Origin: an uncultured Verrucomicrobiota bacterium
GTDB taxonomy: Bacteria; Verrucomicrobiota; Verrucomicrobiia; Limisphaerales; UBA9464
Assembly: GCA_903864375.1 (NCBI GenBank)
Contig: CAIPFS010000696.1
Coordinates: 1-34,662, forward strand
Direction of reading: 5' to 3'
DNA length: 34,662 nucleotides
The position numbers and the translations under genes were made by a program. The notes beneath the pieces were generated by a model. That model had not been told where the DNA came from. It saw only the letters and a program-made list of their open reading frames with translations, and made no database searches. The first letter of the stretch is position 1. Each line of letters begins with the position of its first letter. Shown piece by piece: positions 11,318 through 33,987 of this stretch.

Positions 11318-11471
11318 TTTCAGAGCAAAGCCTTCGATGGTCCATCCGGACATCGATCCACTGACCTGTCCCATCGTTGGTCAACAAGGGTGGCTGGCAT
11401 CGCGAAGGGATGTAAAACAGGGAGATTCAAAACGGGGAGATCCGTGTTTCGACGCAGAGAGTTCGAACGGG

Positions 11472-17024: not shown

Positions 17025-18125
17025 CTACTGGCTCAGCGGATTGCTGACCCCGACGCCACCAAAGCTGCTATCCACGGCGTGGCCGCCTTCATTGGCCGCG
17101 ACCGTACGGACAAAGGTGTCGGTGATCAATTTTGCATACCGTTCAAGCGTCCGGAAGGGGCTGCGGGGAACATAGACGATATCTCCTGCCTGCAGACTCA
17201 CGTCTTTCTGGCGGCCCAGATAGATGGCCTGAAAGTTGACCAATCCGATCCGGGGCTCGGAGAGCGACCCGCGCACAATGGCCACCTGACTGACATAGGC
17301 ATCCGGCGTGGTTCCCAGGGCTTTGGCAATGGCGGTGGTCAGGGTCATGTGATCGACATACCCCAACGGACGAGGGCCCCGGACCGCTCCGAGAACATAG
17401 ATCTGAGCGGAAAGCGAGGAAGGCAGGTAGATGAAGTCGTCCGGCTCGAGATAGATGTTCTGCGTCGTATCACCCTGTCGCAACAACCGTTGAAAATTGA
17501 CGGGCAGCATCTCGCCGCTGCGAATTAAGAAACTGTGATTGAGATCAGCCAACTCCTCCGTGGTTCCCGTGAAGCGCGAAGTGAAGAGTCCGCCGGCCCT
17601 GGAAATGGCCTCGATCACCGTCATGGGTGCGTCCAGCGGAAAGACGCCCGATTTGTTAAGCCGCCCCATGACCCAGACCCTTTTGCTTTCAGCCCGTGTC
17701 AATTGCAGCGATAACTGAGGGTGCTGGTAGTATTGGGTCAGCTCTTTTTCCAGCTTCAATCGGGCTTCCTCGAGGGTCAGCGCCCAGACATCCATTCCAG
17801 GAAGTAGATCGAAATAGATTTTTCCATCGGCACAGACAAAAGTCGTCGTCCGCGTGCCTGTACGCCCGAGGATTTCCAGTTCAATACGGTCGCCGGGGCC
17901 CAGACGGTAGGGCTCGGTGGACGGTCGGAGCCATTCCGGACGTATCTGATTCGAGCTCACCACGCTGGTCAGATTGGTGGCGGGAGCTCCCACGGGGGCC
18001 GGGGTGGTTGCCCGGGGGTCAAATTTCTTGGCCACCAGAACCGATTCCGGCGCACAACCCGCCCAAAAAATTGCCATGGCCACCAGCAGGGGAGGGATGG
18101 GGATTCGGAAAAAGTTCCTGTTCAT
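17025..18125 (-). CDS. Wza-like polysaccharide export lipoprotein (Poly_export/SLBB)
   Basis: Lipobox-like AIFWAGCAPES, YRLGPGDRIELEILGRTGTRTTTFVCADGKIYFDLLPGMDVWALTLEEARLKLEKELTQYY, SLBB segments VWVMGRLNKSGVFPLDAPMTVIEAISRAGGL and IYVLGAVRGPRPLGY. Confidence 0.92.
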   Translation of the reverse strand: MNRNFFRIPIPPLLVAMAIFWAGCAPESVLVAKKFDPRATTPAPVGAPATNLTSVVSSNQIRPEWLRPSTEPYRLGPGDRIELEILGRTGTRTTTFVCADGKIYFDLLPGMDVWALTLEEARLKLEKELTQYYQHPQLSLQLTRAESKRVWVMGRLNKSGVFPLDAPMTVIEAISRAGGLFTSRFTGTTEELADLNHSFLIRSGEMLPVNFQRLLRQGDTTQNIYLEPDDFIYLPSSLSAQIYVLGAVRGPRPLGYVDHMTLTTAIAKALGTTPDAYVSQVAIVRGSLSEPRIGLVNFQAIYLGRQKDVSLQAGDIVYVPRSPFRTLERYAKLITDTFVRTVAANEGGHAVDSSFGGVGVSNPLSQ

Positions 18126-18126
18126 G

Positions 18127-19176
18127 TCACTTGATTCCAGGGACCACCGGGCTGGTGATCAGGGGTCCGATGTTTTTGCCGGTCCAGGTGGTCACGACCG
18201 TCTGGATGAATGAAGTGACCGCAAGGTCGGCGAGGTCCTCCACCCGAATCCACGGACGGTTGGACACGTATACCAGGTCGCGGGGCAGCAGCCGGAAGTC
18301 GGAACCCTTGCCGGCGAGGATGTCCTTGGTATCGACGATGAAACGCTCGGGATTCTCGAGGCTGCCCCGGACAACCAGCACCCGCTGGCGGAAGGCGTTT
18401 TCAGTGAAGCCACCGGCCAGCGTGATGGAGCCGAGGACACTGGCGTCAATGGAGAGCCCCTGGGCGCCGGGCGATCCCACGGCACCCAGCACGTAGATCT
18501 CATTATTCACCGAGGACGGAAAATAAAGGTAGTCGTCGGGTTCGATCAGGATGTTCTGGCTCAAATCCCCACGGCGAAACAGCTTGTCGAGGTCAATGGG
18601 AACCCGCTGATGATTCCGGATCAGAAAGCTGCGGGGCAGATCCGCCAGCTCCACTGTGTTGAGCTGAAAAATGCCTGTTTCAAGTCCACCCGCCTGAGCC
18701 ACGGCCTCGATGACGGTCATGGGACGCTCCAGTGTAAATGCTCCCTTATTAATCACCTTGCCAAGAATATAGAATTTTTTGCTCCTCAATTCCCCGGGGG
18801 TCACGATGACGCGGGGGCGGATGTAGTACCTGGACAGTTCAGAGGCGACGGCCTCCCGAAGCTCGTCGATGGTCTTCCCGGCGGCCATCACCCCAAGGGC
18901 CTGGAGGTAATTCACGCGTCCGTCAGGGGCGATGACGACATTGGGGCGGGCCAGTTCGGGATGTCCGTAAAAGGAGAATCCGATGACGTCGTTGGGTCCC
19001 AGGGTGTAGTGCTCCTGCCAGGCGGCCTTGATTCTGGAATTGCTGCCCGAAAACACCAGCGGAGCCGACGGCTTCGGCGCGGTGGGAATGATGGCTTCGT
19101 CGGCGCGGGCGATGACGAGCGCCAGACAGACGGCAAGGAAGATCCGACACCCGGGGAAGCGGGAGGAAGAGCTCAT
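18127..19176 (-). CDS. Wza-like polysaccharide export protein, second tandem copy
   Basis: YTLGPNDVIGFSFYGHPELARPNVVIAPDGRVNYLQALGVMAAGKTIDELREAVASELSRYY, FYILGKVINKGAFTLERPMTVIEAVAQAGGL. Start MSSSSRFPG overlaps the upstream stop by 4 nt. Confidence 0.92.
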   Translation of the reverse strand: MSSSSRFPGCRIFLAVCLALVIARADEAIIPTAPKPSAPLVFSGSNSRIKAAWQEHYTLGPNDVIGFSFYGHPELARPNVVIAPDGRVNYLQALGVMAAGKTIDELREAVASELSRYYIRPRVIVTPGELRSKKFYILGKVINKGAFTLERPMTVIEAVAQAGGLETGIFQLNTVELADLPRSFLIRNHQRVPIDLDKLFRRGDLSQNILIEPDDYLYFPSSVNNEIYVLGAVGSPGAQGLSIDASVLGSITLAGGFTENAFRQRVLVVRGSLENPERFIVDTKDILAGKGSDFRLLPRDLVYVSNRPWIRVEDLADLAVTSFIQTVVTTWTGKNIGPLITSPVVPGIK

Positions 19177-21194
19177 GACCACGGGAAGAGTTTTGCCTCC
19201 TGATTCAACAGAGCCCCGGCCAGCGGGCAACGGGCATTTTGCAGGATCACCAGGCGTTCACGGACATCGCGTCCGCGAGTCTGATTGCCCCGGGCGAGCC
19301 AGAGCAACTGGGGAACCGTTTCCGCCCACATCAGGGTATCCGGCTGATCGGTTCCGGCGATTTCGAGGAGGACCACCACACCGGTGGCCTGATTCCAGCG
19401 CCCGATCACCTCCTGCCATTGCTGCCGGTGCGCCGCCGTCCATTCCCAGGCGGGTGGCAGCAGCAACCAGACGGTCTGCCCAATGACCGGACCGGCTTCA
19501 TCCGGCCGGCTCAATGCCTGTTCGATGGGAATCACCCGCCCGTTGCGGGGTGCCCGATTGGTGACCACCAACACCGACGGATGGCGTTGGCCGGCCGCGG
19601 CGGCCAGGAGCTCCATCCAGGTGGAGGCTCCCTCCCGGCGCGCAGAGGTGACGAAACCGCAGATCACGTTGCCATTGGGGGTGGCCACGAGTTTGCTTTG
19701 AAGGGCCAGCCAGGTCCGGAAGGCCCAATGCGACTGGGCAACGGCATCCAGGCTTTCGAGGTCGGGAAGGCGCGCCAGAAGGGGCAGTTTGGTGACGCGC
19801 TTCAAATCGGCCGCGGTCTTGATCCGGTCATCCAACAATTCCACGACGCAGATGCCCAACAGGGTTCCCATGACACCCAGAATGCCTCCGACCACCGCCA
19901 GGAGGATGACCTTTTTGGAGCGCCCGGACACCTCGACGTCTTCGACATTGGCGTCGAAGTAGCGGTAGTATCCCGGGGAGTTTTCCTCGTAGAGCTGGGC
20001 TTCACGCTGGCGGCTGGCCAGAAGGGAACGGGAGCCTTCCAGGGATTGCTGACGGGCCTTGATCCGCACGAGCTGCATTGCCTTTTCGGGCAGTCCGCGC
20101 AATTTCTCGTCCACCTCGGTCCGGGTCGCCTTCATCTTTTCAATCTGGGCGGCGACGACCTGCTTGTGGGTTCGCAGGGTGAGCAGTTCGGAGTAATATC
20201 CGGTGGACAAGCCACCTTCTCCCTGACGAGGGGGAGCAATGGGGTTGGTGGCGGACTCCTGGGCCCGTTTCTCCAACTCGGCCAGGAGAGCCTGCTGCTC
20301 CTGAATGATCGGGTTGAGTTCGGTGTATTCCTGGCGGAGGTCCGACAGTCGTTCGCGAGCCACCTGCAACTTTTCTTGAACCGGGCTGTGGGTGGTCAGT
20401 TCCCGTTCGAGCGCGGCCATCTGAAGGTCGATGGTTTCGTACTCGATTTTCATGGTCGAAAACCGGAGGTCCAGGTCGCCAAGGGTGCGCAGGTAGGCAT
20501 CCATCTCCTTGTCAGCGTTGATCAGGCCGGCCTGTTTGGAAAATTCCAGTTCTTCCTGATTGGCCGCCCGGAGGTCCTCCTCGGTCTTGCTCAACTGTCG
20601 CTTGAGCAGGCGGTTCATTTCCACCGCCTCCTGCGTCTGCATTTCCTTGATCAACTTCACGACGGTGTTGCCAAAAATGTTCAGAACCCGCACTGCGGCG
20701 CCGGCGCTGCGTCCTGACACGTAGGTCACGGTGATCAGATCCGTGTTGCGTTCCGGCGTCACCGTCATATTACCGATGATGGCTCGCGAGGACAGCTGGG
20801 CCTCCTCGGCCACCCGCTGCATGACCACAGGCGATTTAACCAGACTGACCAGGGTCTGGACGGTCATCTGCCGGGGTTTGAACGGTTCTCCCAATTCGGA
20901 GGCGCGAAAAGTGGCGGACGACTCCTGGCGGATGAGTTGCGCCGTGGCCTTGTAGGAGGCTGTGAATTTCTTGTACCCCAGTGCCCCGGCAAGGAGGGCG
21001 AGAACAGCTCCCGCCACCCCCATCATCCACCATCGGCGAAGGAGGGCAGCGATCAGGCGGAGGGGATCGAGCGGCATGCCGGATCCGCCAGACGGAGGCT
21101 GGGGCGGCGGCCCGGACGGCACCACACCACCGGAGGCAGTCGGGATGGTTTCCAGACTGTTGGGCGGCAGGTCAGTTTCAGGTCGGGTGGTCAC
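19173..21194 (-). CDS. GumC/Wzc-like polysaccharide chain-length/co-polymerase protein with degenerate BY-kinase-like C-terminus
   Basis: N-terminal Wzz region (LRLIAALLRRWWMMGVAGAVLALLAGALGYKKFTASYKATAQLIRQ), long coiled coil, second TM (VILLAVVGGILGVMGTLLGICVVELLDDRIKTAADLKRVTKLPLLARLP), then a Rossmann-like tail GFVTSARREGASTWMELLAAAAGQRHPSVLVVTN. Confidence 0.9.
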   Translation of the reverse strand: MTTRPETDLPPNSLETIPTASGGVVPSGPPPQPPSGGSGMPLDPLRLIAALLRRWWMMGVAGAVLALLAGALGYKKFTASYKATAQLIRQESSATFRASELGEPFKPRQMTVQTLVSLVKSPVVMQRVAEEAQLSSRAIIGNMTVTPERNTDLITVTYVSGRSAGAAVRVLNIFGNTVVKLIKEMQTQEAVEMNRLLKRQLSKTEEDLRAANQEELEFSKQAGLINADKEMDAYLRTLGDLDLRFSTMKIEYETIDLQMAALERELTTHSPVQEKLQVARERLSDLRQEYTELNPIIQEQQALLAELEKRAQESATNPIAPPRQGEGGLSTGYYSELLTLRTHKQVVAAQIEKMKATRTEVDEKLRGLPEKAMQLVRIKARQQSLEGSRSLLASRQREAQLYEENSPGYYRYFDANVEDVEVSGRSKKVILLAVVGGILGVMGTLLGICVVELLDDRIKTAADLKRVTKLPLLARLPDLESLDAVAQSHWAFRTWLALQSKLVATPNGNVICGFVTSARREGASTWMELLAAAAGQRHPSVLVVTNRAPRNGRVIPIEQALSRPDEAGPVIGQTVWLLLPPAWEWTAAHRQQWQEVIGRWNQATGVVVLLEIAGTDQPDTLMWAETVPQLLWLARGNQTRGRDVRERLVILQNARCPLAGALLNQEAKLFPWS

Positions 21195-21226: not shown

Positions 21227-22381
21227 TCAGGAACTTGCAGCCCGACGGGCAATCGCTTCCCGGTACACGGCAAGAACTTGGGACGCATTGCGCTGCCAGT
21301 CAAAGCCTGCGGCATGAACCAGGCCCAACCGGGTCAACTCTTTCCGGCGGGCGCCGTCGGAAGCCATCCGGCTCAGGCCCTGAGTCATGCTATCGACATT
21401 TTCAGGGTCGAGAACCTCGGCCGCGTTGCCAATCACCTCGGCGAGAGCACCGCGGGTGGAGCTGAGCACCGGGCATCCGCAGGCCATGGCTTCCACCGGA
21501 GGAAATCCAAATCCCTCGAACAACGACGGATAAACCATCGTTCCCGCGGCTTGATAGAGGGCGGGAAGCGCGTCATCGGGAACAAAACCCAAAAAGCGGA
21601 TGTCCCGGCTGAACGGTGATTGCGCCGCAGCGGTGCGGATCAATTCCGCACCGGGCCAATCTCCGCCACCGATGGCCAGCAACCACGGAGAGGCCGTCTG
21701 GCTCTTGAATCGATTGAAAGCATCAAACAAGCGGACGTGATTCTTCGCCGGATGCTCCAGGCGGGACACGTACAGGAAGTAAGGGCTGTCCAGCTTCCAG
21801 CGACGGGCCACCTCGGATTCCGCCTCGGGGCGGAGTCCGGGCCTGAATCTCTGATGATCAATGCCATTGTGGACCACGTGCTGGCGTTGAAGTGGAACTC
21901 CGAAGAAACGCTCAATGTCCCTGGCCGTGTTTTGGCTGATGGCGATGATCTCCTCCTGGCGGCGGGCCAATTGCCGGACAACCACCTTCCCGTAGAACAT
22001 CCGGGCGGGATCGTATTTACCCCGGACATGAAACGGAGCGAGGTCGTGAATGGTGGCCACCCGTGCGCAGGGGGCGCTCCAGACCATCCGACGGTAACTG
22101 GGAACATGAAGGACATCGATTTCCATCCGGCGCAGCAACCCCGGAAGGGTGGTATGATGCCAGAGGATATTACGAACAGCGCGACGATGCGTCTCGGGAA
22201 CGGTGACGATCTCCGCCCTGCCCCGGGCAAAGGCAAACAACGGCAACTCCTCCTCCAGCACCAACAGGACGATCTCATGGTCACCGGGTGCCTCCAACAG
22301 GGCGCGGACCAGGGCGAGAATGTATTGTCCAACGCCGGACTTGCCGCGTTGAAGGACCGAGGTGGAAAAGGCGATGCGCAT
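21227..22381 (-). CDS. GT4-family glycosyltransferase
   Basis: MRIAFSTSVLQRGKSGVGQYILALVRALL, VHNGIDHQRFRPG, YPSLFEGFGFPPVEAMACGCPVLSSTRGALAEVIGNAAEVLDPENVDSM. Confidence 0.93.
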   Translation of the reverse strand: MRIAFSTSVLQRGKSGVGQYILALVRALLEAPGDHEIVLLVLEEELPLFAFARGRAEIVTVPETHRRAVRNILWHHTTLPGLLRRMEIDVLHVPSYRRMVWSAPCARVATIHDLAPFHVRGKYDPARMFYGKVVVRQLARRQEEIIAISQNTARDIERFFGVPLQRQHVVHNGIDHQRFRPGLRPEAESEVARRWKLDSPYFLYVSRLEHPAKNHVRLFDAFNRFKSQTASPWLLAIGGGDWPGAELIRTAAAQSPFSRDIRFLGFVPDDALPALYQAAGTMVYPSLFEGFGFPPVEAMACGCPVLSSTRGALAEVIGNAAEVLDPENVDSMTQGLSRMASDGARRKELTRLGLVHAAGFDWQRNASQVLAVYREAIARRAASS

Positions 22382-22383
22382 GA

Positions 22384-23931
22384 TCAGCTCAGGAGCAGGT
22401 TATCGAGCCGGACAATCCGGAGGACGTTCAGCACTGCGGGTGTCGGACCAACAAAACGAACCTTCATTCCCAGTTTGACCCCGTGCTTCCGCACCTTGAG
22501 CATCAGCCGGACACCAGTGCTGTCGATGAACCGAACCCCTTCCAGCCGGACATCCACTTCCGAGGTGTGTCCATTGCGCAGTTCGAGGTAATACTGGGTC
22601 ATATTCCAAACCGCGTCGACGTTGGCCGCCACGACCTCGCCCGTCCATACCAGGGGTCCCACCCGCCCGGAAATGTCCAGATCGACACCCACAGGACGCT
22701 CACCTTCCCGTGCCCGGGTCAATTCGTGGGCCGCCGCCAGGTCGGGAGCGGTGGTGAACATTCCGTCCACCCGCATCAATTCCAAAGCCCGGACGACGGG
22801 GGCGGACGGACCGACCAGAACCAGTTGTCGTTCGTCGGCTCGAAGCTGTTTGAGCAGTCGAATCAGCAGTCCCAGTCCGGTGCTGTCGATGAACTGAATT
22901 TGGGAAAGGTCCGCCAGAACATGCCCTTCGCTGGCCCGGAGCAATCGGATCAGATCGCGATATCTTTCGACGGCCGCGGCATCCAACCGCTCGCCAAACC
23001 GGACGATTTCCGAAATGCCGTGGGTTGTTTCCCGGATTCCCGTCGATTCAGTTCCGGGCGTCGCGGCGGATCGATGTCGTAATTCCCACCATTGGGTTGC
23101 GATGGCTCGACCAAAGACGACGAGGTCGACCGCATATCTTTTGAAGAGGCGTTTCGGTTCCTGCAACAGGCGGAAGATCCATTCCAAACCGGTCTTTTGC
23201 ATCCACCGGGGTGCGCGACGGACGGTGCCACCGAGGAAATCGATGGTTGCTCCCACGCCCACGCTGACCGGCACACCCGATGCCATGAAATGCATGCGAA
23301 TCCATTTCTCCTGCTTGGGACAGCCAAACGCGACGAGGACGATGTCGGGTCGGGCGGCGCGCAGGCGCTGGAGGACATCCTCGTGGTCCATGTCCACCAG
23401 CGGCTTGAACGGTGGCGAATAGGAGCCCACCAGTTGAAGGCGCGGATACCGCAGACGGGTATTGGCGGTGGCCCGCTCCAGGCTCGCCTCCGCACCTCCG
23501 AGGAAGAAAATCCTCCATCCCCGGCGCTCGGCTTCCGCGAGCAGAAGGGGAACAAGGTCGGATCCGGTCACCCGTTCCGGAAGGGGATTGCCGAGCAGAC
23601 GGGAGGCCCAGACGAGGGGCATGCCGTCACACAACACCAGGTCCGCCTCTGCCAGAATTCGTTGCAGTTCCACGTCGCGCAGGGCCTGGACGGCAAAATC
23701 GACGTTGGCCGTCGCGAGATAGTGGGGACGCTTCGAAAGAATCATTTCACCAATGATTCGCAGCGTGTCAGACATGGTGACCTTGTCGAAGGGGACGCCC
23801 AACATGGCCACCGGTGCCGGACGGTCGCAAAGGCTGTTCCGTTCGCCGGGGGAGGCCGGTTTCGAGGTGGTGGGGGCAGATCCAGGAGCGGGCATCATAT
23901 CGCTAGGGCACGGAATCGGTCGACAACCCAA
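22384..23931 (-). CDS. WecG/TagA/CpsF (GT26) glycosyltransferase fused to two C-terminal STAS domains
   Basis: GT26 motifs YLATANVDFAVQALRD, CDGMPLVWASRLLG, ERVTGSDL, AFGCPKQEKWIRMH, GVGATIDFLGGTVRRAPRWMQKTGLEWIFRLLQEPKRLFKRY (about aa 42-285). STAS1 with VLADLSQIQFIDSTGLGLLIRLLKQL and STAS2 with VDVRLEGVRFIDSTGVRLMLKVRKHG. Start may be 23898. Confidence 0.93.
   Translation of the reverse strand: MGCRPIPCPSDMMPAPGSAPTTSKPASPGERNSLCDRPAPVAMLGVPFDKVTMSDTLRIIGEMILSKRPHYLATANVDFAVQALRDVELQRILAEADLVLCDGMPLVWASRLLGNPLPERVTGSDLVPLLLAEAERRGWRIFFLGGAEASLERATANTRLRYPRLQLVGSYSPPFKPLVDMDHEDVLQRLRAARPDIVLVAFGCPKQEKWIRMHFMASGVPVSVGVGATIDFLGGTVRRAPRWMQKTGLEWIFRLLQEPKRLFKRYAVDLVVFGRAIATQWWELRHRSAATPGTESTGIRETTHGISEIVRFGERLDAAAVERYRDLIRLLRASEGHVLADLSQIQFIDSTGLGLLIRLLKQLRADERQLVLVGPSAPVVRALELMRVDGMFTTAPDLAAAHELTRAREGERPVGVDLDISGRVGPLVWTGEVVAANVDAVWNMTQYYLELRNGHTSEVDVRLEGVRFIDSTGVRLMLKVRKHGVKLGMKVRFVGPTPAVLNVLRIVRLDNLLLS
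22387..22659 (-). other. STAS domain 2 of the GT26 fusion (conserved Ser471 in IDSTGV, codon 22519-22521)
   Basis: About aa 425-515: VGPLVWTGEVVAANVDAVWNMTQYYLELRNGHTSEVDVRLEGVRFIDSTGVRLMLKVRKHGVKLGMKVRFVGPTPAVLNVLRIVRLDNLLL. Confidence 0.82.
22732..23019 (-). other. STAS domain 1 of the GT26 fusion (conserved Ser350 in IDSTGLG, codon 22882-22884)
   Basis: About aa 305-400: ISEIVRFGERLDAAAVERYRDLIRLLRASEGHVLADLSQIQFIDSTGLGLLIRLLKQLRADERQLVLVGPSAPVVRALELMRVDGMFTT. Confidence 0.88.
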
Positions 23932-24325
23932 ACGGTCGACGAAGCCAGGAAATCGTGGAGGACACTTCGATGTTCCCCGTTCGGGTCAAATACACGGACA
24001 GCCGGTAGCTTTGCGGCTCGACATAGTCGCCGTGCCAGAATTCGACCCCGTTGGTGAACAACCGGGCCTCGCTCGCGGCACCCTTTGGTTCGAGAGAAAA
24101 ACGAACCGACTCCCCATCGGCAATGTCGTCGAAGGTTCGTTGCTGACCGCAGGCCGTCACCCGCAGGGCGGAGACGGTCCGTCCCGTTTCATTGTAAATC
24201 ATGATGCGGGTGGTCCCGGCGCGCACCCAGGCGACCCCGGCGGAAACAGCCAGCATCAAAATGGCGAGCAACGGCAGCCAGACCCGGCGCCGGCGCCACC
24301 AGTCAGGGGGCAAAACGACGCGCAT
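23903..24325 (-). CDS. Hypothetical protein with N-terminal transmembrane anchor
   Basis: 140 aa, MRVVLPPDWWRRRRVWLPLLAILMLAVSAGVAWVRAGTTRIMIYNETGRTVSALRV...; positive-inside TM segment then a beta-rich tail. In tight register with flanking EPS genes (23-nt overlap with the upstream gene). Confidence 0.7.
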   Translation of the reverse strand: MRVVLPPDWWRRRRVWLPLLAILMLAVSAGVAWVRAGTTRIMIYNETGRTVSALRVTACGQQRTFDDIADGESVRFSLEPKGAASEARLFTNGVEFWHGDYVEPQSYRLSVYLTRTGNIEVSSTISWLRRPFGLSTDSVP

Positions 24326-25505
24326 AGGTTTCGCTCAATTGTCGTCCGAGTGTCTTCCAGGACAACCGGTCTCGGACCGTTTTCTGACCGGTCACCTCCA
24401 ACCGTCGGCGCAGCGCCTCATCGCGGAGACCGTTACCCGTCTCCTCAATAAATGCCTGGGCTGTGTCGGCCAGCAGGATTTCCTCACCATGCCGGAGTTC
24501 AAGACCCTGGGCACCGATGGTGGTGGAAACCACCGGTGTGCCCATCGCCATGCTTTCGGGAATCTTCAACCGGGTTCCACCGCCGATCCGCAGCGGGACG
24601 ATTTGTAACCAGGCCTGCCGGTAATAAGGGCGAACGTCGGGGACACCGCCGGTGACGGTCACCCCCTTGCGGGAGGCGTAGGCCTGAACCTCTGGAAGCG
24701 GGGCCTTTCCCACGATGAGGACCCGCAGTTGAGGCACCCATTCCAGCAGTCCGTCATGGATTTCCTCAAAAAACCAGCGGAGCGCATCGACATTGGGCGA
24801 ATAGTCCATCGCCCCGCAGAAGAGAACCGTCGGTTCAACGGCCCGGGGCACCGGCGTGGATTCAGGGGTGAAAAAATCGAGGTCCACACCGTTGGTGATC
24901 ACGAGGGTCCGGACCCGCCTTGAAATCTCGAAACAGATGAAGTTCTCATCATCGGGACCACAGACCACCTCGAGGGCGGAGCGCCGGGCGATACGGCGCT
25001 CAAAGCGTCCCAGCTTGAACAAATTCTCCCAATCAAGAATGGACTGCCGGAACCCACGGGAAAGCGCGGCCCGCTGTGCCAGTTGAAATTGAAGGTCCAC
25101 CCGGCTCCGGTCGATGGCCAGGGGTAGATCCTGATGGTCCTCCAGAAAGTACTGGGCCATGACGATGTCGCACACATGGACCAGCGGATAGGTCTCGGTC
25201 CCGATAAACCGCTTCAGGGCCTCGGCGATGTGGGGAAGCCGCCAGTGGCGGATGGTGGTGGGAAGCGGATTCAGGAGTCGATTCGAAAGCCGGGGCCAGG
25301 CGGGATGGGAGAACCGGACAAATTCCACCCGTCGACAGAATTCCTGAAAATGAGGCTTCTGATCCTCCCGCTCTCCATTTTCACACAGGGCAAGGAGATC
25401 CACCTCGTGGTCCCTCGCCAGCGCACGCAGCAGGTGATAGGTCCGTTGAAAGGTTCCCCGATCGGGCGGGTATGGAACGTAGGGGTAGACAACAAGAAGC
25501 CGCAT
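24303..25505 (-). CDS. GT4-family glycosyltransferase (resembles PEP-CTERM/EpsH-associated sugar transferases)
   Basis: MRLLVVYPYVPYPPDRGTFQRTYHLLRALARDHEVDLLAL, VITNGVDLDFFTPE, TVLFCGAMDYSPNVDALRWFFEEI, IVPLRIGGGTRLKIPESMAMGTPVVSTTIGAQGLELRHGEEILLADT. Confidence 0.93.
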   Translation of the reverse strand: MRLLVVYPYVPYPPDRGTFQRTYHLLRALARDHEVDLLALCENGEREDQKPHFQEFCRRVEFVRFSHPAWPRLSNRLLNPLPTTIRHWRLPHIAEALKRFIGTETYPLVHVCDIVMAQYFLEDHQDLPLAIDRSRVDLQFQLAQRAALSRGFRQSILDWENLFKLGRFERRIARRSALEVVCGPDDENFICFEISRRVRTLVITNGVDLDFFTPESTPVPRAVEPTVLFCGAMDYSPNVDALRWFFEEIHDGLLEWVPQLRVLIVGKAPLPEVQAYASRKGVTVTGGVPDVRPYYRQAWLQIVPLRIGGGTRLKIPESMAMGTPVVSTTIGAQGLELRHGEEILLADTAQAFIEETGNGLRDEALRRRLEVTGQKTVRDRLSWKTLGRQLSETYARRFAP

Positions 25506-25507
25506 GA

Positions 25508-26668
25508 CTAGTGGTATCGATGCCAGAGTCGTTCGTAAGCCGCAACCAATCCCGGAAGTTGGGATTCCCGGGTCCGAAGTTCGCGTTGGAGCTCGCGTTG
25601 GAGCTGATCATCGCGCCCCTCGGTTGAAAGACTCCCCACACCCCCCAGCAACAGGCAAAGGGAGTGAAACAGGCGCTCACGGGGATAGCGCCCTGATAAT
25701 ACTCCCGGCCAATACCTGTCCCGAAGGTTCACCAGACGGTTGCGCCAGGCGGGTTGTTCCGGACATTTGTCGACACGGCTGCGGGCATAGTCGGAGCCGT
25801 TGGAAAACGAGGTGCCCAACCGACGATTCTCCTGCCACAACCAGACGCTTTTCGCGATGGTCTGCAATCGCTCGAGGGAGCCCTTCAGTTCCTCCCGGGT
25901 GGCGATGGTTCGACGCGGGTGCAATTTGAATTCCACCCCCGCCTGGTGATGAACCTGGACTGCCTTGAGGAACGGCAACTCCTCCGTGGGAGCGATGGCC
26001 AGGAGTCGTCGCTGGCGTTCCCGGCAACTCCAATGGTACTCCCCACGGCTCACCAGCACGACGTCACCCAATGCCAGCTCCAGCTTGGCCAGATTGCGCC
26101 CGACGAAATCGGCCTCCTCGGATCCAAACTCCGGGCGCTCCAACCGTTCCAGGCTGAACAGGAGTCCCGAACAGCGGTTCATCAACAGCCGCGTGGCCTC
26201 ATGGAGCGGAATGCGATGGGCGTCCCGCCGGTGGGCCGCCAGCGACAGGTCCAGAACGTTGGCATCGCCAAAGATCAGCCGGTTTCCGGCTGCGAGATCA
26301 TAATAAAACATCGAGGGCGGGGATGCCAGCAGCTTGGGCAACGTCATCACCTTGAACTCGACCTCAAGTCCCGCCGCAGGGGAAAGCCGGGATCCAATGT
26401 CATGCAATGGTCCCCGGAACTTCCGTTCGGCCAACAAGGCATTGCCGCGCAAAAAGACATAAAACTCGAGGTCGTTGTAGGGCCGTTCTCCATCCGGCGT
26501 CTGAAGGACCCCCCCCTCCCCGCGTCCGTAGCCACCGCCCAGCAGAATGCCATCGAGTTTCCAGCGTGGGATCAGACTCAGGACCTCGTTGCGCACGTCG
26601 AGGCAGAGCTGCGCCAGCCGCCGTTCGAGGTCCGGTCCCCCATCCACTGTGAACCGAATGGAATTCAT
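25508..26668 (-). CDS. Nucleotidyltransferase-fold protein of unknown role inside the EPS operon
   Basis: ILLGGGYGRGEGGVLQTPDGERPYNDLEFYVF fits the pol-beta NTase pattern (G[G/S] ... DhE), with a further acidic strand LEVEFKVMTL. Confidence 0.65.
   Translation of the reverse strand: MNSIRFTVDGGPDLERRLAQLCLDVRNEVLSLIPRWKLDGILLGGGYGRGEGGVLQTPDGERPYNDLEFYVFLRGNALLAERKFRGPLHDIGSRLSPAAGLEVEFKVMTLPKLLASPPSMFYYDLAAGNRLIFGDANVLDLSLAAHRRDAHRIPLHEATRLLMNRCSGLLFSLERLERPEFGSEEADFVGRNLAKLELALGDVVLVSRGEYHWSCRERQRRLLAIAPTEELPFLKAVQVHHQAGVEFKLHPRRTIATREELKGSLERLQTIAKSVWLWQENRRLGTSFSNGSDYARSRVDKCPEQPAWRNRLVNLRDRYWPGVLSGRYPRERLFHSLCLLLGGVGSLSTEGRDDQLQRELQRELRTRESQLPGLVAAYERLWHRYH
25581..25604. repeat. Perfect 12-bp tandem duplication (tcgcgttggagc x2) within the NTase-fold CDS
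   Basis: Read directly as tcgcgttggagc tcgcgttggagc; encodes the QRELQREL repeat. Confidence 0.9.
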
Positions 26669-27921
26669 GATGCCACCCGGGTTCCCCGGGCCAGGGCCAC
26701 CGTCTCCAACAGGTAGCGCTCAAACTGGTCCACAACCACCGGTTCATTGTAACGGGAGCGGACCTCGGCGTGGCCCGTCGCCGCCATTCGTGCTCGGGCC
26801 ACGGGGTCAGACGCCAGTTCAACGATGCGTTCCGCCAGCTGGGCGGCATCGCCGGCCGGGTAGGTCAGGGCGTTTTCGCCGTGCCGGAATAATTCCGGGC
26901 TGCCTCCGGTCATGGTGCCGATGACGGGCAGACCGCTGCTCATGGCTTCCAGCGGTGTCAGGGCAAACGGCTCCTCCCATTCCGAGGTGAACAGGAGGGC
27001 ATCGTGTGCACGGTAGATGCCGGGCATTTCGGACGATCGGGCGGTATGAAAATAGACCGGCAGGTGATGCTCGCGAACGTAGGTGTGCAGGCGGGTGGTG
27101 TAGTCGGCATCACCCCGGCCGTAAATGTGGAGCTCACCGGGAAATCGACCCTGGACGGCCGCCATGGCCCGGAGGGCCGTCATCACTCCCTTATCCTCCG
27201 CCAGTCGTCCCACATAGAGCAGTCGGTGAAGAATCTGTGAAGCCGGGGCGGGAGTACCGGAAAACCGTCCGATATCGACCGGACAATAAATGATGGCCCC
27301 GTGGCCCACAGAATAGCCTTTCGCAGCAGTCAAATCGCGCAGCGCCCGGCTGCAAAAAGTGATCCGATCAAACCGGATGGAGCGGACCGGATCCGCGGGT
27401 GCGACGGAACTCCATTTCCGCCGTTGACCGGTCCAACCCCAAGCTGTTCGCAACACCCGGGCCAGGAGGGACGGATGGCTGCGGTTCCACCAGTCGAGCC
27501 AGACATCTGCGGCCAGGCTTCGGGCAATCCAATGATCGGACAGATGGTAGGCCGTCGGGACAGGCAACCCCTGCAAGGTCAGGCAGATCGATTTGGAAAT
27601 GCCCCCAAGGTTCCAAACATGAACGACATCGGGTTCAAACCGGGCAACGGCCTCACGGACGCACCGGTTGTTGTGCACTTCGAGATCGGCCAGCGCCCGA
27701 ATCCCCAGCCACGGATGACCAAAAAAACCGTGAACGCGGAGGTCCCGACGTACCCCGGGCTCGGTGGCATCCTCCCGAACCCCGTCCACCCGGTGATTGG
27801 AGGTCAGAACTTCCACCGTGTGTCCACGGGCACGCCACGCCGCAACCATGGCGGCGCAGATCAATTCATATCCCCCGACATAATGCGGGGGATAGAGATT
27901 GGACAGGACCAGTATTTTCAT
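26665..27921 (-). CDS. GT4-family glycosyltransferase
   Basis: MKILVLSNLYPPHYVGGYELICAAMVAAWRARGHTVEVLTSNH, RLLYVGRLAEDKGVMTALRAMAAVQ, LLFTSEWEEPFALTPLEAMSSGLPVIGTMTGGSPELFRHGENALTYPAGD. Confidence 0.94.
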   Translation of the reverse strand: MKILVLSNLYPPHYVGGYELICAAMVAAWRARGHTVEVLTSNHRVDGVREDATEPGVRRDLRVHGFFGHPWLGIRALADLEVHNNRCVREAVARFEPDVVHVWNLGGISKSICLTLQGLPVPTAYHLSDHWIARSLAADVWLDWWNRSHPSLLARVLRTAWGWTGQRRKWSSVAPADPVRSIRFDRITFCSRALRDLTAAKGYSVGHGAIIYCPVDIGRFSGTPAPASQILHRLLYVGRLAEDKGVMTALRAMAAVQGRFPGELHIYGRGDADYTTRLHTYVREHHLPVYFHTARSSEMPGIYRAHDALLFTSEWEEPFALTPLEAMSSGLPVIGTMTGGSPELFRHGENALTYPAGDAAQLAERIVELASDPVARARMAATGHAEVRSRYNEPVVVDQFERYLLETVALARGTRVAS

Positions 27922-28787
27922 GCGGGTGTGGATTCCTTCCAGCCCTGGCGGTAGCCGGCCAGCTTGCCAGCCCGCTGCGCCCATCGCACCCGCGCGGCAT
28001 GAGGCCATTCACCGAACCTCCGGTGGCTGGAGCAAAACCGGAAATCATGCCGGACGTCGCTCAGCCAGCCGAGAAGGACAATACGCCACCAGGAAATCCC
28101 GTCCGGATGCCGGCTCCAGGCCCGGGCGATGGCCCGGGCGTCGCCAAAGCTTCGTCGCCGGGCCTGTTCGACGGTGTAGTTATGCGAGTGCATCACCACC
28201 GATTCCGGGACATAGAGGACGTCGTAGCCCTGCGCCCGGCACCAGCGTGTATATTCATCGTCCTCGGCGTACTGCAATTCCTCCCGGAATCCACGGCGCG
28301 CCCAGGCATCCCGCCGGAGGCCGCTGCTGACCATGCTGAAAAAATGCTCCCACCGGGCGGATTCCCGGGCGGGACCAAAGCAGCGTTCATAATCACAGGC
28401 ATACACAGCCTGGCAGTCCGGACGCGGAATCTGACGTCCGAAAACCGCTGCGACCCGGGGATTGGCCAGCGGAGCCGCCAGCCGGGGAAGCCAGTCGGTC
28501 CCCTGGGGCGTCGCGTCGGCATTGAGAAAGAGGCAGACGTCGGCGCGGGCCAGCCGCATCCCATGATTCATGACCCGGCTGGGATTATATTCCGCGGGTG
28601 TGATCTGGATGAAGTGGGCCGGCTGGAACGCCCGGATGAGCTCCTGGGATCCGTCGGTGGATCCAGAGTCGATCACGATGAGCTCCCAATTCCGATACTG
28701 CTGAGCCCGCAGGGCCGGGAGCGTCCCCTTGAGGGCCCACGCCTCGTTGTACGAGCGCATGATGATGCTGACCAGCGGTTCGCTCAT
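27918..28787 (-). CDS. GT2-family glycosyltransferase
   Basis: VSIIMRSYNEAWALKGTLPALRAQQYRNWELIVIDSGSTDGSQELI, LFLNADATPQGTDWL, YAEDDEYTRWCRAQGYDVLYVPESVVMHSHNYT. Confidence 0.94.
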   Translation of the reverse strand: MSEPLVSIIMRSYNEAWALKGTLPALRAQQYRNWELIVIDSGSTDGSQELIRAFQPAHFIQITPAEYNPSRVMNHGMRLARADVCLFLNADATPQGTDWLPRLAAPLANPRVAAVFGRQIPRPDCQAVYACDYERCFGPARESARWEHFFSMVSSGLRRDAWARRGFREELQYAEDDEYTRWCRAQGYDVLYVPESVVMHSHNYTVEQARRRSFGDARAIARAWSRHPDGISWWRIVLLGWLSDVRHDFRFCSSHRRFGEWPHAARVRWAQRAGKLAGYRQGWKESTPA

Positions 28788-30346
28788 GGGACGGACCTCC
28801 GACGGATCGGAAAACGACGGCCAAATTTCCGGGTCAATTCCTCCTGTTCGCCCGGTCGCAAGGCCATTCGCCAGAGTCCGAACGCACCCACCACGCCCGC
28901 CAGCGTCCCCTCAATGAACATGGCGGCCATGGTCGAGCCACCGGGTGCCAGTACGACCAGTTTCAAGGCGATCAGGACGGCCAGCATGGGGAGGCATCCC
29001 AGCCACGAGGGAATCACGGATTGCCGGAACAAGGGCCAGCCTTTGAGACCCGTGTTCTTGGCCATCCATGGCCACAAGTGGACCCATCCGAAATAGAGGG
29101 TGGGAATCAATGAACCGACCGCCACCGCCACCACGCTCCGGGTTGCCAGCACCAGGCCGACACTGAGAATGAGATTGGCGGCAGCCTCGCCGAGGCCAAG
29201 CCACATCAGTCGACGTTCATGGCCGGTCATCATGAAGATCCGCTTGGAAACGCTATGGGTCAGGATCGTGGTGTAAAACCAGGCCAGCAGCACATGTCCC
29301 ACAAGGATGGTATCCGCCGAGAGCGACTTGTCGCCGGTCAACAAACGAAGCAGCTCGGAAAGGTAAAAGGCACAGAGCAGGTAGAGCGGCGTGGCGATCA
29401 GCACGGTCCAGCGAAGGCTGTTGACCAGCAAATCCTGAAGCGCGGCCGTGTCTCCGGTGGCATGGAGATGGGCCGCTGCCGGCGAGAGGGTGTCCTGCAC
29501 CTGCTTGGTGAACTGGCTGAACACCTCGGCCACTTTTGCGCCGGCCTGATAGAGTGCCACTGCCGAAACCGAGAGAGCGGCACCGAGCACCAGCTGATCG
29601 GTTTTCCCCAACACGATGTTGGTGGCGGTGCCCAGGTAGGCAAACACCGAAAACTGCATGGTCTCCCCCATCATCGACGGTGAAAACAGCGACGGACGAA
29701 TCCGAACGCCAGGCATCCGCTGGAGGGCGAAGAGCGCCGCCAGAAAGTCGGGGGCCAATGCAAAGAACAGCGCGATGAACATCACCGCCATGAAACTCCA
29801 CTTGAACCAGACGGCGGCGGCGATGAAACCGAGCCGCAGGATCAGCGCTCCGGAAATCAGGTTGTTGGTCAGCCGGATGCGTTGCTGCCCGCGGAGCACC
29901 TCCGGGAAGATGCCCATCGGAAAGGCCAGCCCGATGCCGAGAAAAAACACCACCATGACCTTGCGGAACTCCTCATGATTGGCGGCGGAGACGCCAAACC
30001 ATCGGACGATGGTGGCCGAGCCCGCCAGGACCACCAATGCGATGGCCACGGAAATACCGGCATAGAAGACCAGGATGGTGCTCAGCACCCGGCTGAGCTT
30101 TTCCCAATCCTTCAGGACCGAAAGTTCGGCCACCCGCTTTTGGGCGGCAAAGCCGAATCCGAAATCGAGAAGGATGCCATACCCAAACACACTCCAGAGC
30201 AGCGACCAAAAGCCAAACTGCTCCTGATTCAGGGACTGATACAACATCCGGAACGTGAGCAGACCGACGGCCATGCCCAGGACGGTCCGGACATAGTTCG
30301 AAATCGAGTTGCTCCAGATGTTGCGTTTGACCTCGGCGTAGCTCAT
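28784..30346 (-). CDS. Oligosaccharide flippase family protein (Wzx/MATE-like)
   Basis: Start at MSYAEVKRNIWSNSISNYVRTVLGMAVGLLTFRMLYQSLNQEQFGFWSLLWSVFGYGILLDFGFGFAAQKRVAEL; many TM segments. The ORF extends to 30637, but the internal ATG overlaps the upstream stop in the same 4-nt pattern as its neighbours. Confidence 0.92.
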   Translation of the reverse strand: MSYAEVKRNIWSNSISNYVRTVLGMAVGLLTFRMLYQSLNQEQFGFWSLLWSVFGYGILLDFGFGFAAQKRVAELSVLKDWEKLSRVLSTILVFYAGISVAIALVVLAGSATIVRWFGVSAANHEEFRKVMVVFFLGIGLAFPMGIFPEVLRGQQRIRLTNNLISGALILRLGFIAAAVWFKWSFMAVMFIALFFALAPDFLAALFALQRMPGVRIRPSLFSPSMMGETMQFSVFAYLGTATNIVLGKTDQLVLGAALSVSAVALYQAGAKVAEVFSQFTKQVQDTLSPAAAHLHATGDTAALQDLLVNSLRWTVLIATPLYLLCAFYLSELLRLLTGDKSLSADTILVGHVLLAWFYTTILTHSVSKRIFMMTGHERRLMWLGLGEAAANLILSVGLVLATRSVVAVAVGSLIPTLYFGWVHLWPWMAKNTGLKGWPLFRQSVIPSWLGCLPMLAVLIALKLVVLAPGGSTMAAMFIEGTLAGVVGAFGLWRMALRPGEQEELTRKFGRRFPIRRRSVP

Positions 30347-31629
30347 GGGGCCGTCCTCCCGAAACGCGTTGCCGCATGACGCTCTGCCGCCCGATAGAGC
30401 CCTTCCAATTGAACCGCCACGCGGCTCCAGTCGTAGCGTCCCCGGGCCTCCTCCCGCCCGGCTTCGCCCAACCGGCGGCGCAGACCGGAATCGCCAGCGA
30501 GAAGCAGCAGACGTTGGGTAAGGTCGGCGGCGGTCCCCTCCTCCCCGGGGCGGATGAAAAGGCCGTTTTCCCCGTCGTGAATCAGCGCCCGGAGGCCACC
30601 CACATGATTTGCGACCACCGCCCGACCGGCACTCCACGCCTCCAGCACCACGATGCCGAACGGCTCATGGCGGGACGGCAGCACAAAGACGTCGCAGGCG
30701 TGATAGGCCTCCACGAGCTGGGGATCGTCGTTGCGCAGCCCCGGCAGCAATCGAACGGAACCGGAAAGCTGTCGTTCGGCCACCAGAGCCCGGAGACGTG
30801 CAGCGTAGTCCGGCTGGGTCTCCGGTCCGATCAGGACCAGAAAGGCATCGGGCTGATGACGGATGAATTCAGAAAATGCCTCCAGCAGAAGCAGTTGATT
30901 TTTTTGGGGATCAATCCGGCTGAGGTTCAGAACCACGAATCCGTTCGCGGGGATTCCATGACGGCGACGGAATGCGGCACCGTCCCCGGTGGCGAAACGG
31001 GCCGAATCCACCCCATTCGGCAGGTAGGCAATGCGATCGTGTTTCAACTGCCCCCGGGCCTTCTCGAGTTCACCCGCCCCCACGCAGATCACTTGATCGG
31101 CATCGTCCAGAATACGTCGGGATCCGAAGAGGGCCCCGAAAACCTTGCCCCACTCCGGCTTGTTGGCGATGGGGCGGAGCATCTGTTCCCGTTCGGCCTC
31201 AGGAACATCAAACACGCCGCCATGGAGGGTCACGACAAACGGTTTCCGACGGAGACGGGCGGCGGTTCGAACCTCTCCACCCAGCCGCTTGAGGGCGTGG
31301 GCATGGAACAGCCGCACGTTGGGGCGGGATAAGAGCCCACAGAAGAGGGAGAGGGAAAGCAGGTTGCCCCCTTTTTTGTCCATGGCGGCCCGGTCCTCGC
31401 GGCTCAACCCCAAAAAAGGATAACAGTAGGGATACCGGTGGACCGGCACTCCCCCCAATTCCTCATGCCTCTGACTGGCCAGGGCCATGGAGGTCATGAT
31501 TTCCGGAGCGGCACCCGCGCGTTGTTGCTGACGCGAGATCTCGAGAATCACGGTTTCCGTGCCTCCCCATTCCGCGGCGACAAACCGGCGGGGAACATGA
31601 ACGATCCGTTGTTTCTCCGACGGGTTCAC
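30343..31629 (-). CDS. GT4-family glycosyltransferase
   Basis: PRRFVAAEWGGTETVILEISRQQQRAG, RIAYLPNGVDSARFATGD, VVLNLSRIDPQKNQLLLLEAFSEF, VFVLPSRHEPFGIVVLEAWSAGRAVVANHVGGLRALIHDGENGLFIRPGE. Confidence 0.95.
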   Translation of the reverse strand: MNPSEKQRIVHVPRRFVAAEWGGTETVILEISRQQQRAGAAPEIMTSMALASQRHEELGGVPVHRYPYCYPFLGLSREDRAAMDKKGGNLLSLSLFCGLLSRPNVRLFHAHALKRLGGEVRTAARLRRKPFVVTLHGGVFDVPEAEREQMLRPIANKPEWGKVFGALFGSRRILDDADQVICVGAGELEKARGQLKHDRIAYLPNGVDSARFATGDGAAFRRRHGIPANGFVVLNLSRIDPQKNQLLLLEAFSEFIRHQPDAFLVLIGPETQPDYAARLRALVAERQLSGSVRLLPGLRNDDPQLVEAYHACDVFVLPSRHEPFGIVVLEAWSAGRAVVANHVGGLRALIHDGENGLFIRPGEEGTAADLTQRLLLLAGDSGLRRRLGEAGREEARGRYDWSRVAVQLEGLYRAAERHAATRFGRTAP

Positions 31630-32384
31630 GAGCGCAGAAAGAGGAAGGTGCCCCCTTCCTCCCGTTCAACGTGAAATCCGAGATTCAACAAATCCCCGAC
31701 AATCCGGTAGGTGGCCGCATGCCCGATGAAACCAGGGTGCAATTCAACGATGATCTTGCGAACGGAGGCGGGAAGCTGGCGGAAATCGACATATTGTTCG
31801 GCCCCTTCAATGTCCATGATGAAAGCCGTGGGGGAATAATCCATCCGGGACACGAGGGTGGTCAGGGACACTCCCGGGACCTGAACCGAGCGCCCGCCGG
31901 AACCGGCGACCAGCGAGTTTTCCCAAAATTCGTTGCCGATATTCAAGGTCACCATCCCGTCCGATGCCGCCAGTGCCAGATTCAAGACGTTCGGAGTGCG
32001 TCCGTTGATTTCGTAGTTGCGCTTGAGGCGCTCCACGGTTCCCGGATTGGCCTCCACCGTCGTGTAGCGGGTGATGCCAACGCGAATCTGGCAGAACAGA
32101 CCGATGAACCCGATGGCACCTCCCACCTCCAGGACCGTGTCCTCCGGGCGCAGGAACTGTTGTGCCAGCAGACGTTCCTGCACTTCATAACGCCCCAGCA
32201 GAAGATTATTCTTCATCACGGAGGACAATCCTTTGACCTCCAATTGCACCCCCTCCAGGGTGACACGCTCCACCTTGGGCAGGGAGAACTTAAACCGCCA
32301 GCGGGTGCGAAAATCCTGCCAGAGCTGATACAGGAGCGTTCGCTCGATCAGGCTGGGGCGTGTCGACGAAGGGGTGGAACTCAT
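31626..32384 (-). CDS. FkbM-family methyltransferase
   Basis: EDTVLEVGGAIGFIGLFCQIRVGITRYTTVEANPGTVERLKRNYEING, AFIMDIEGAEQYVDFRQLPASVRKIIVELHPGFIG. Confidence 0.9.
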   Translation of the reverse strand: MSSTPSSTRPSLIERTLLYQLWQDFRTRWRFKFSLPKVERVTLEGVQLEVKGLSSVMKNNLLLGRYEVQERLLAQQFLRPEDTVLEVGGAIGFIGLFCQIRVGITRYTTVEANPGTVERLKRNYEINGRTPNVLNLALAASDGMVTLNIGNEFWENSLVAGSGGRSVQVPGVSLTTLVSRMDYSPTAFIMDIEGAEQYVDFRQLPASVRKIIVELHPGFIGHAATYRIVGDLLNLGFHVEREEGGTFLFLRS

Positions 32385-33598
32385 GGAAGGTTGGGCGTTG
32401 CCCCGGTCCGGTTGCGATCCCGGGCGAGCAGGGCGGTCTCTTTCATCAAATCACAGAGGTGGGGAATGGCAGTCAGACTGTCGGGAAATTCACGCTGATT
32501 GGTCAGGACGGTGGCGTACGAATGCCTGTCTGTCGGATGATAGCCGTGCATGGCGCGGATGGGGCGCTCGCCCATGTGGCTCGGAACGATAAGAACGCCC
32601 TCCTTCACCAGGAAGATCAACTCCCCGAAATAGCGATCCTCAAAGCGCGTGTGCATCGCCTCCAGTTCGTTGTCGGGCAGAATCCGGCCCTCAGGCACCT
32701 GCTGTAGCGTGGCCTCGATCAACTGCCGGGCCCGATCATTGAAAAACCAGAACCGGGCCATGGTGGAATCGTACACCGCGGCGTAGTCCTTTTGAAATTT
32801 CAACGGCAGGGCATCGATCCGGGCCATCAAATCGAGGTGGATGTCGCAGTTGGCCATCCCGTGATCGCTGAAAACGTACAGGCGAATGTCGTCGTACCGG
32901 CTTTGGGCGGCCTGGATGAGTTGTTGCAGCCACTGTTCATACACCCGGAGGCGGGCGGGAATTTCCGGTGAATCATTGCCCACGCGGTGCAACAGGCCAT
33001 CCAGACCCGCCCAGTAAAGAAACGCAAAGTCAATGGAACCATCCCGCAACCGGGCGGCGAGGGCGTCGCGATTGGCCTCCTCGGACTGGGCTGGATCACT
33101 GACAAAGTACGGAATCTGCTGTGCCACCAGGAAATCAAAGATATTCTCACCCCGGTTCATTCCCCCGGGTCGCAGCGGGCTCTTTTTCTCAGTGAAGTCG
33201 TACCGATGGATGTGCTGGAACGGAATGTTATAAAGATCAAAATAACCCTGAAACTGAAGACGCGCCTTGAAGATCCGTGTGAGCACCCGGCGGACGATGC
33301 GTCGCCCCGTCAGAGCCCGGGGAAGCCAGCGGAGCCACCGGAGGGAGCGGAACGGCGAGTTTTTCGGGTCATGGACAAAATAACACCAGTTGCGATGCTG
33401 AACCGGCCATCGCCCGGATAGAATCGACGGCACACAGGTCGAGCTGTAGCCAAAGACGCTGTCCAATCGTCGCCGGAGGGGGACGAATCCGTTTCCAAAG
33501 GGATCATTCCGGAGGATTTCCCATCCCATGGCGTCAATCATGACGAAGAGCGCCAGCACGGGCTTCCGGGGTGCGCTCCCGGGCTGTTCGGAATTCAT
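32381..33598 (-). CDS. Alkaline-phosphatase-superfamily enzyme (type I phosphodiesterase/nucleotide pyrophosphatase-like)
   Basis: LFVMIDAMGWE (metal Asp), FGYSSTCVPSILSGRWP (nucleophile region), YWAGLDGLLHRVG (Asp/His ligands), LYVFSDHGMANCD (Asp-His), IRAMHGYHPTDR (His ligand). Confidence 0.85.
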   Translation of the reverse strand: MNSEQPGSAPRKPVLALFVMIDAMGWEILRNDPFGNGFVPLRRRLDSVFGYSSTCVPSILSGRWPVQHRNWCYFVHDPKNSPFRSLRWLRWLPRALTGRRIVRRVLTRIFKARLQFQGYFDLYNIPFQHIHRYDFTEKKSPLRPGGMNRGENIFDFLVAQQIPYFVSDPAQSEEANRDALAARLRDGSIDFAFLYWAGLDGLLHRVGNDSPEIPARLRVYEQWLQQLIQAAQSRYDDIRLYVFSDHGMANCDIHLDLMARIDALPLKFQKDYAAVYDSTMARFWFFNDRARQLIEATLQQVPEGRILPDNELEAMHTRFEDRYFGELIFLVKEGVLIVPSHMGERPIRAMHGYHPTDRHSYATVLTNQREFPDSLTAIPHLCDLMKETALLARDRNRTGATPNLP

Positions 33599-33987
33599 GG
33601 CGTGGAAGGAGGTGTTGCCAGGGTGGAGATCAGGCGACGGGCTTCGGCCGCCAGGGAACTGGGACTGAACGGCTTGGTCAGGTAGAGCGCCGCCCCGGAG
33701 CCCTGGGCTTCCGTGCGGGTGATGGTCTGACCGCGGGTGGTCAGCATGATGATGGGGATGGCGGAGGTCGAGGGAGTCGCCTTCAGATGCCGGAGGGCGG
33801 TGATTCCGTCCATTTCCGGCATGGTGACATCCATGACGATCAGGGCCGGGAGTTCCCGGCTGGCCAGCTCAATGGCCTCACGACCACTCCGGGCCGTCAG
33901 GATTTGATACCCATCCTTCTTCAGGCTCAGTTCGGTGAGTCGCAACATGTGCGGCTCGTCATCCACGATGAGAACTTTGCGGCTCAT
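33595..33987 (-). CDS. Stand-alone CheY-like response regulator receiver
   Basis: VLIVDDEPHMLRLTELSLKKDGYQILTARSGREAIELASRELPALIVMDVTMPEMDGITALRHLK...IPIIMLTTRG...ALYLTKPFSPSSL, with phospho-acceptor Asp, Thr and Lys retained. The ORF extends to 34062; start set at MSRKVL. Confidence 0.94.
   Translation of the reverse strand: MSRKVLIVDDEPHMLRLTELSLKKDGYQILTARSGREAIELASRELPALIVMDVTMPEMDGITALRHLKATPSTSAIPIIMLTTRGQTITRTEAQGSGAALYLTKPFSPSSLAAEARRLISTLATPPSTP

Follow-up and report, generated by a model that had tools for sequence, protein, structure and literature searches.

The closest characterised polysaccharide system in which a STAS-domain protein is switched by phosphorylation is SypA/SypE of Vibrio fischeri. 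SypE carries a serine kinase, a receiver (REC) domain and a PP2C phosphatase in one protein and controls Ser56 of SypA; a SypA S56A variant permits biofilm, and an S56D variant fails to support it (PMC10120452). SypA acts below transcription, and its protein target is not known (PMC10120452). There is also a precedent for joining STAS to a glycosyltransferase that makes polysaccharide: a review (PMC8256260, citing Wang et al. 2007) describes Anabaena all4160 as a glycosyltransferase whose N-terminus is a STAS domain, and the title of Wang et al. 2007 indicates that it is needed for heterocyst envelope polysaccharide. On the enzymatic side, the C-terminal appendage of the glycosyltransferase TagA is required for catalysis, directs the enzyme to the membrane and supplies the missing part of the monomer's active site; soluble TagA dimers are inactive (PMC6493773).

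Here we describe a WecG/TagA/CpsF (GT26) glycosyltransferase fused to two STAS domains, encoded on a contig of an uncultured Verrucomicrobiota bacterium. The whole stretch of DNA analysed, 34,662 nucleotides in length, is referred to as the window.

Results

The window holds a polysaccharide locus whose genes lie on the minus strand and run from a phosphatase fragment through two Wza-like exporters. Its features, including the parts of the fusion gene, are as follows.

33989..34660, minus strand: SpoIIE-type PP2C phosphatase, the C-terminal part of a HATPase_c-GAF-SpoIIE protein truncated at the contig end (PF07228, E 7e-42)
33595..33987, minus strand: stand-alone receiver (REC) domain, directly behind the kinase/phosphatase (PF00072, E 1e-27)
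32381..33598, minus strand: type I phosphodiesterase-like protein (PF01663)
31626..32384, minus strand: FkbM-family methyltransferase (TIGR01444)
30343..31629, minus strand: GT4 glycosyltransferase
28784..30637, minus strand: polysaccharide flippase-like protein (MatE/Polysacc_synt_3)
27918..28787, minus strand: GT2 glycosyltransferase
26665..28008, minus strand: GT4 glycosyltransferase
25508..26668, minus strand: 386-aa protein, no Pfam match
24303..25505, minus strand: GT4 glycosyltransferase
23903..24325, minus strand: small 140-aa protein, directly upstream of the fusion gene
22384..23931, minus strand: GT26-STAS-STAS fusion gene, 515 aa from TTG; single open frame in 71 homologues
23134..23646, minus strand: WecG/TagA/CpsF (GT26) catalytic domain of the fusion (PF03808, residues 96-266, E 2e-66)
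23077..23217, minus strand: C-terminal membrane-targeting/active-site appendage of the fusion (7mpk alignment and conservation; role per PMC6493773)
22729..23025, minus strand: STAS domain 1 of the fusion (PF01740); acceptor-type Ser350, codon 22882-22884
22387..22692, minus strand: STAS domain 2 of the fusion (second PF01740 stretch); acceptor-type Ser471, codon 22519-22521
21227..22381, minus strand: GT4 glycosyltransferase, directly downstream of the fusion; conserved neighbour
19173..21194, minus strand: Wzz/Wzc-like chain-length determinant (PF02706 and TIGR03007, below curated cut-offs; PF02706 at 24.9 bits against 25.5)
18127..19230, minus strand: Wza-like polysaccharide export protein (PF02563 and SLBB)
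17025..18125, minus strand: second Wza-like polysaccharide export protein (PF02563 and SLBB)

Several of these genes recur in other genomes. The phosphodiesterase-like gene (32381-33598) adjoins the REC gene, directly behind it, in many relatives, and many Verrucomicrobiota conserve the 386-aa protein (25508-26668) beside the GT26-STAS gene in their exopolysaccharide locus. Two further long open reading frames, at 11472-13502 (676 aa) and 13850-15865 (671 aa), gave no clear Pfam or NCBIfam matches.

Counted from the TTG, the fusion frame comprises 515 codons without an internal stop; an ATG at 23898 (504 aa), immediately past the point where the upstream gene ends, is the likelier start. The GT26 part exceeds the curated cut-offs of both PF03808 (223 bits versus 27.4) and TIGR00696 (160 versus 69). 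The C-terminal region is matched in two stretches by PF01740 (E 3e-25) and again in two stretches by PF13466, and NCBIfam assigns the protein both to the WecB/TagA/CpsF superfamily and to ant_ant_sig, the anti-sigma factor antagonist superfamily, each above cut-off. Both STAS domains contain an I-D-S-T-G motif (D349-S350 and D470-S471), so that DSTG, a form of the phospho-acceptor signature D-S-[ST]-G, occurs twice. The original prediction, namely that one reading frame joins a full WecG/TagA/CpsF domain to two STAS domains with acceptor-type serines at positions 350 and 471, is thus upheld by Pfam, by NCBIfam and by the structure prediction described below, with identical residue numbering; the C-terminal part that it had read as STAS is scored as such by PF01740, PF13466 and ant_ant_sig alike. 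These are not stand-alone, single-domain STAS regulators of a sigma factor; since they are fused to GT26, the protein as a whole is not a member of the RsbV/SpoIIAA family. A second GT26 enzyme of the same genome (279-aa frame) lacks STAS domains.

Closer examination of the catalytic part highlights the elements expected of a functional TagA-like transferase. In a phmmer alignment to 7mpk, TagA residues Thr37, Asp65 and Arg83 correspond to T45, D73 and R91, and the appendage residues Arg214 and Arg221 correspond to R225 and R232 (486-aa numbering). None of these five varies among the 71 homologues, and the equivalent of TagA Gln167 is kept in 64 of the 71. Judged by these residues, the GT26 enzyme looks active. 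The STAS pair starts shortly after the appendage.

The fusion is conserved over its whole length. Seventy-one homologues align end to end with one open frame, at 75-89% identity within the same genus and 41-60% elsewhere, and the frame between the GT26 and STAS regions, where a stop or frameshift had been named as a risk to the original prediction, is open in these full-length relatives and in the closed, single-contig genome G472, which also carries the fusion. Full-length homologues occur in 19 of 96 order-level relatives (the window's own genome counted) and strong matches in 37 of 390 phylum-wide genomes, nearly all covering STAS and one-contig genomes included. Among 80 GTDB loci, nearly all with full-length homologues, almost all belong to the Verrucomicrobiota and one to Luteimonas. 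Some homologues are single-STAS variants. The Luteimonas panaciterrae protein (locus L134, frame 9746-12181) is a GT26-STAS-STAS whose frame runs to 812 aa, the last 200 or so residues being additional and without a Pfam match, and the kinase described below was not found in that genome. Spread by plasmids or other mobile elements was considered and rejected, as no plasmid record covered 80% of the query and the best matches were to the GT26 part only.

Comparison of the window with its closest relative gives dN/dS values of approximately 0.03 for both GT26 and STAS2 and 0.05 for STAS1, against 0.27 for the linker; the STAS regions are under purifying selection. An AlphaFold2 model built from 71 sequences reached a mean pLDDT of 92.1 and a pTM of 0.90, and Foldseek matched it to TagA (7mpk, TMt 0.94) and to STAS proteins of the SpoIIAA/RsbV type (1tid, 1th8 and 6m36, TMt 0.83-0.88). 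The model that had been proposed as a check on the fusion thus returns both expected folds.

The phosphatase fragment at the contig end belongs to a kinase/phosphatase gene split over two contigs of one genome, namely the window (33989-34660) and contig C557 (L161:3166-4284), which lie about 12 bases apart; the two were left unjoined in our analysis. Contig C557 carries the kinase half together with a lone STAS gene, a hexapeptide-protein gene and a PF02397 initiating sugar transferase. In the sister genome G002 the protein is intact (606 aa; HATPase_c_2 at 19-137, GAF, SpoIIE at 411-600) and 91% identical to the window's fragment. The same three further genes as on C557 precede it there, and REC is also present. 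Direct reading finds the phosphatase metal-site motifs GGDYYD, SDVMGKG, FTDG and ADDT intact, as are the kinase N-box EAANNA and the GRGL motif. In all neighbourhoods mapped, the cassette includes its own lone STAS.

The cassette and the fusion tend to occur together. A HATPase_c-GAF-SpoIIE protein is present in 17 of 19 genomes with the fusion versus 12 of 77 without it (Fisher p = 2e-9, 96 order-level relatives), a figure inflated by shared ancestry; with one genome per family, the counts are 8 of 10 versus 4 of 36 (p = 7e-5). Genome G056, whose sole match is a broken phosphatase part, was scored as lacking the kinase/phosphatase. Among 38 further fusion genomes, 34 encode it, and 13 of the 38 do so on the same contig as the fusion, mostly 0.5-12 kb away and 23 kb away in one; for weaker, largely STAS-less GT26 paralogues the corresponding count is 0 of 28. 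In L097, L151 and L152, where the domains were checked, lone STAS gene(s), kinase/phosphatase, REC and GT26-STAS-STAS follow one another directly, and in closed genome G472 all four lie inside 4.4 kb. Within 10-kb flanks the kinase turned up at just 6 of 80 loci, because, as genome-wide and longer-range searches reveal, it is often 9-15 kb away or on another contig.

Within the window's order the fusion seldom occurs without the cassette. The cassette went undetected in some fusion genomes, namely G091, 4 of the 38 further genomes and most of a distant clade. Outside the window's class, many kinase/phosphatase matches cover the phosphatase part only and are probably generic SpoIIE proteins; as cassette presence is weaker there, we make no phylum-wide claim of obligate pairing. 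Conversely, loci L141-L150 represent genomes with a STAS, HATPase-GAF-SpoIIE and REC cassette and no GT26-STAS fusion. In two of them (L142 and L146) the fusion-less cassette lies beside a PF02397 initiating transferase, and the cassette therefore probably has other clients besides the fusion.

Both acceptor motifs are well kept. The aspartate is invariant (71 of 71) in each STAS domain and the serine is present in 67 of 71 in each, with threonine in three of the STAS2 sequences. The SpoIIAA-like aspartate of the beta2-alpha1 loop is retained by STAS1 in 51 of 71 and is absent from STAS2. In Verrucomicrobiota outside the window's class (the distant clade L164, L166-L168 and L170-L195), STAS1 mostly reads W-L-x-S-x-E-L-G, with the aspartate and glycine lost, and STAS2 mostly keeps D-S; the cassette as a full protein is mostly undetected in this clade. 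Same-class genomes with a linked cassette (G472 and G577, and the more distantly linked G490, G370, G379 and G505) keep D-S in STAS1. This STAS1 pattern fits co-evolution with the cassette kinase, as a correlation that follows clades. STAS2 may use another partner, since the distant clade lost the STAS1 aspartate and kept the STAS2 D-S.

Discussion

The genome context described above points to a reading that we consider probable, with some reservation: GT26-STAS-STAS would be the direct effector of a locus-encoded, SypA/SypE-like partner switch in which serine phosphorylation gates exopolysaccharide synthesis, the enzyme itself being a glycosyltransferase of TagA/WecG type that associates with the membrane and serves a Wzx/Wza-type exopolysaccharide pathway. 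In this scheme the RsbW-like HATPase domain would bind the STAS domains and phosphorylate Ser350 and Ser471, and the SpoIIE/PP2C domain of the same polypeptide would dephosphorylate them under the control of its GAF domain and of the REC encoded next to it. Whether the STAS domains are bound or free, and phosphorylated or not, would then control the glycosyltransferase. Because the pair is attached immediately behind the TagA-like appendage, it most likely would permit or block the appendage transition from inactive soluble dimer to active membrane monomer. If SypA is a guide, activity probably resides in the unphosphorylated form; this direction is the weakest step of the model.

We count the switch mechanism as partly supported because the cassette is co-encoded, co-occurring and linked and the acceptor serines are conserved. 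The original prediction that partner binding or serine phosphorylation controls glycan synthesis accordingly gains strong genomic support, both from the cassette and from serines present in 67 of 71 homologues at each site; every step beyond the gene content, phosphorylation included, is what we infer.

Counting against the effector reading are the fusion genomes in which the cassette went undetected, the loss of the STAS1 aspartate in the distant clade, the missing SpoIIAA-like aspartate of STAS2 and the 12 genomes that hold the cassette without the fusion; from these 12 it follows that the lone STAS may be the main cassette substrate. The STAS pair might then serve only to dock the glycosyltransferase to a complex of lone STAS and kinase/phosphatase, or to other assembly proteins in a stressosome-like or MlaB-like manner, with phosphorylation acting on the lone STAS and not on the enzyme. 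That the cassette always comes with its own lone STAS would suit such a dock, as would the degenerate STAS1 retained by the distant clade. We nevertheless regard it as unlikely, given that both acceptor motifs persist (Ser 67 of 71, Asp 71 of 71) down to approximately 40% identity, which exceeds what a pure dock needs, and that the fusion is rarely without the cassette within the window's order.

Information could also flow in the opposite direction. The canonical RsbV/RsbW and SpoIIAA/SpoIIAB switches place their STAS protein upstream of the kinase (PMC10120452), and the enzyme's STAS domains could by the same logic act as an anti-antagonist input, the state of the glycosyltransferase titrating the RsbW-like kinase and so informing a further client, for example a sigma factor or the lone STAS, about polysaccharide assembly. 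This arrangement is improbable: no sigma-factor gene was seen in a non-exhaustive mapping of cassette neighbourhoods, and in the Syp system STAS lies downstream of the kinase/phosphatase (PMC10120452).

Kinases and phosphatases encoded elsewhere might instead switch the fusion STAS domains, the cassette being linked to the locus only on account of its regulating polysaccharide by way of the lone STAS or the initiating transferase. Fusion genomes do contain many other HATPase_c_2 matches, sensor histidine kinases included, and some lack the cassette; the REC gene, however, adjoins the fusion in L097, L151 and L152, and linkage is seen in closed G472, leaving this explanation highly improbable. 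Finally, although the window forms a single contig in a fragmented assembly that is 76% complete, an assembly or frameshift artefact, or a decaying fusion without a role, can be dismissed in view of the same fusion in 71 homologues and a closed genome and of the strong purifying selection reflected in dN/dS.

If the direct-effector reading holds, partner switching would reach beyond transcription and govern envelope enzymes directly, and the locus suggests that slime production is switched on and off directly at the enzyme. Finding the fusion with kinase, phosphatase and receiver in one locus names a candidate target class for SypA-like STAS proteins, and direct phospho-control of lipid-linked sugar assembly becomes testable in a single purified system. 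More tentatively, partner switches might act directly on a glycosyltransferase, with the fused STAS as the regulated output, and the fusion could then serve as a Rosetta stone, hinting that SypA-like STAS proteins of polysaccharide loci target glycosyltransferases of the lipid-linked assembly pathway.

Our literature search, with most subscription journals outside its reach, returned no description of GT26 with a C-terminal tandem STAS or of its cassette, and queries on WecG with STAS and on Verrucomicrobia exopolysaccharide with STAS returned nothing relevant. The architecture had been put forward as not known to be described experimentally; that stands insofar as no paper on GT26-STAS-STAS was found, and the precedents of all4160 and SypA/SypE lower its novelty somewhat.

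Compared with enzymes of known structure, the fusion shares the fold of the TagA/TarA and WecG transferases (e.g. Thermoanaerobacter italicus TagA, 5wb4 and 7mpk; TMt 0.94), together with the Thr/Asp/Arg catalytic pocket and both conserved appendage arginines. The reaction that characterises the GT26 family is the transfer of a ManNAc/ManNAcA-type sugar to undecaprenyl-PP-GlcNAc. TagA ends at the appendage, whereas the fusion continues into two STAS domains. Anabaena all4160, compared here by its description in a review, likewise places a STAS domain on a polysaccharide glycosyltransferase; that domain is N-terminal (PMC8256260), whereas the fusion carries a C-terminal tandem.

Among partner switches, SpoIIAA/SpoIIAB/SpoIIE and RsbV/RsbW/RsbU have in common with this locus the STAS fold, the D-S-S/T-G motif, a HATPase_c_2 kinase and a SpoIIE-type phosphatase, but they control sigma factors through a separate kinase and phosphatase, whereas the output proposed here is an enzyme. 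HmpU/HmpV/HmpW of Nostoc punctiforme similarly tie a partner switch with a STAS output to motility and polysaccharide (PMC8256260); in that system the STAS protein is alone, its target is not known and no GT26 fusion is reported (PMC8256260). SypA/SypE of V. fischeri matches the window's locus in its STAS protein, its polypeptide with N-terminal kinase and C-terminal PP2C, its receiver and its polysaccharide locus (PMC10120452), and the 606-aa protein of G002 indeed unites kinase and PP2C in one polypeptide within a polysaccharide locus that also holds a STAS gene. The two systems differ in that REC is central in SypE, whereas here GAF is central and REC is a separate downstream gene, and in that SypA is a lone STAS, whereas here STAS is additionally fused to the glycosyltransferase.
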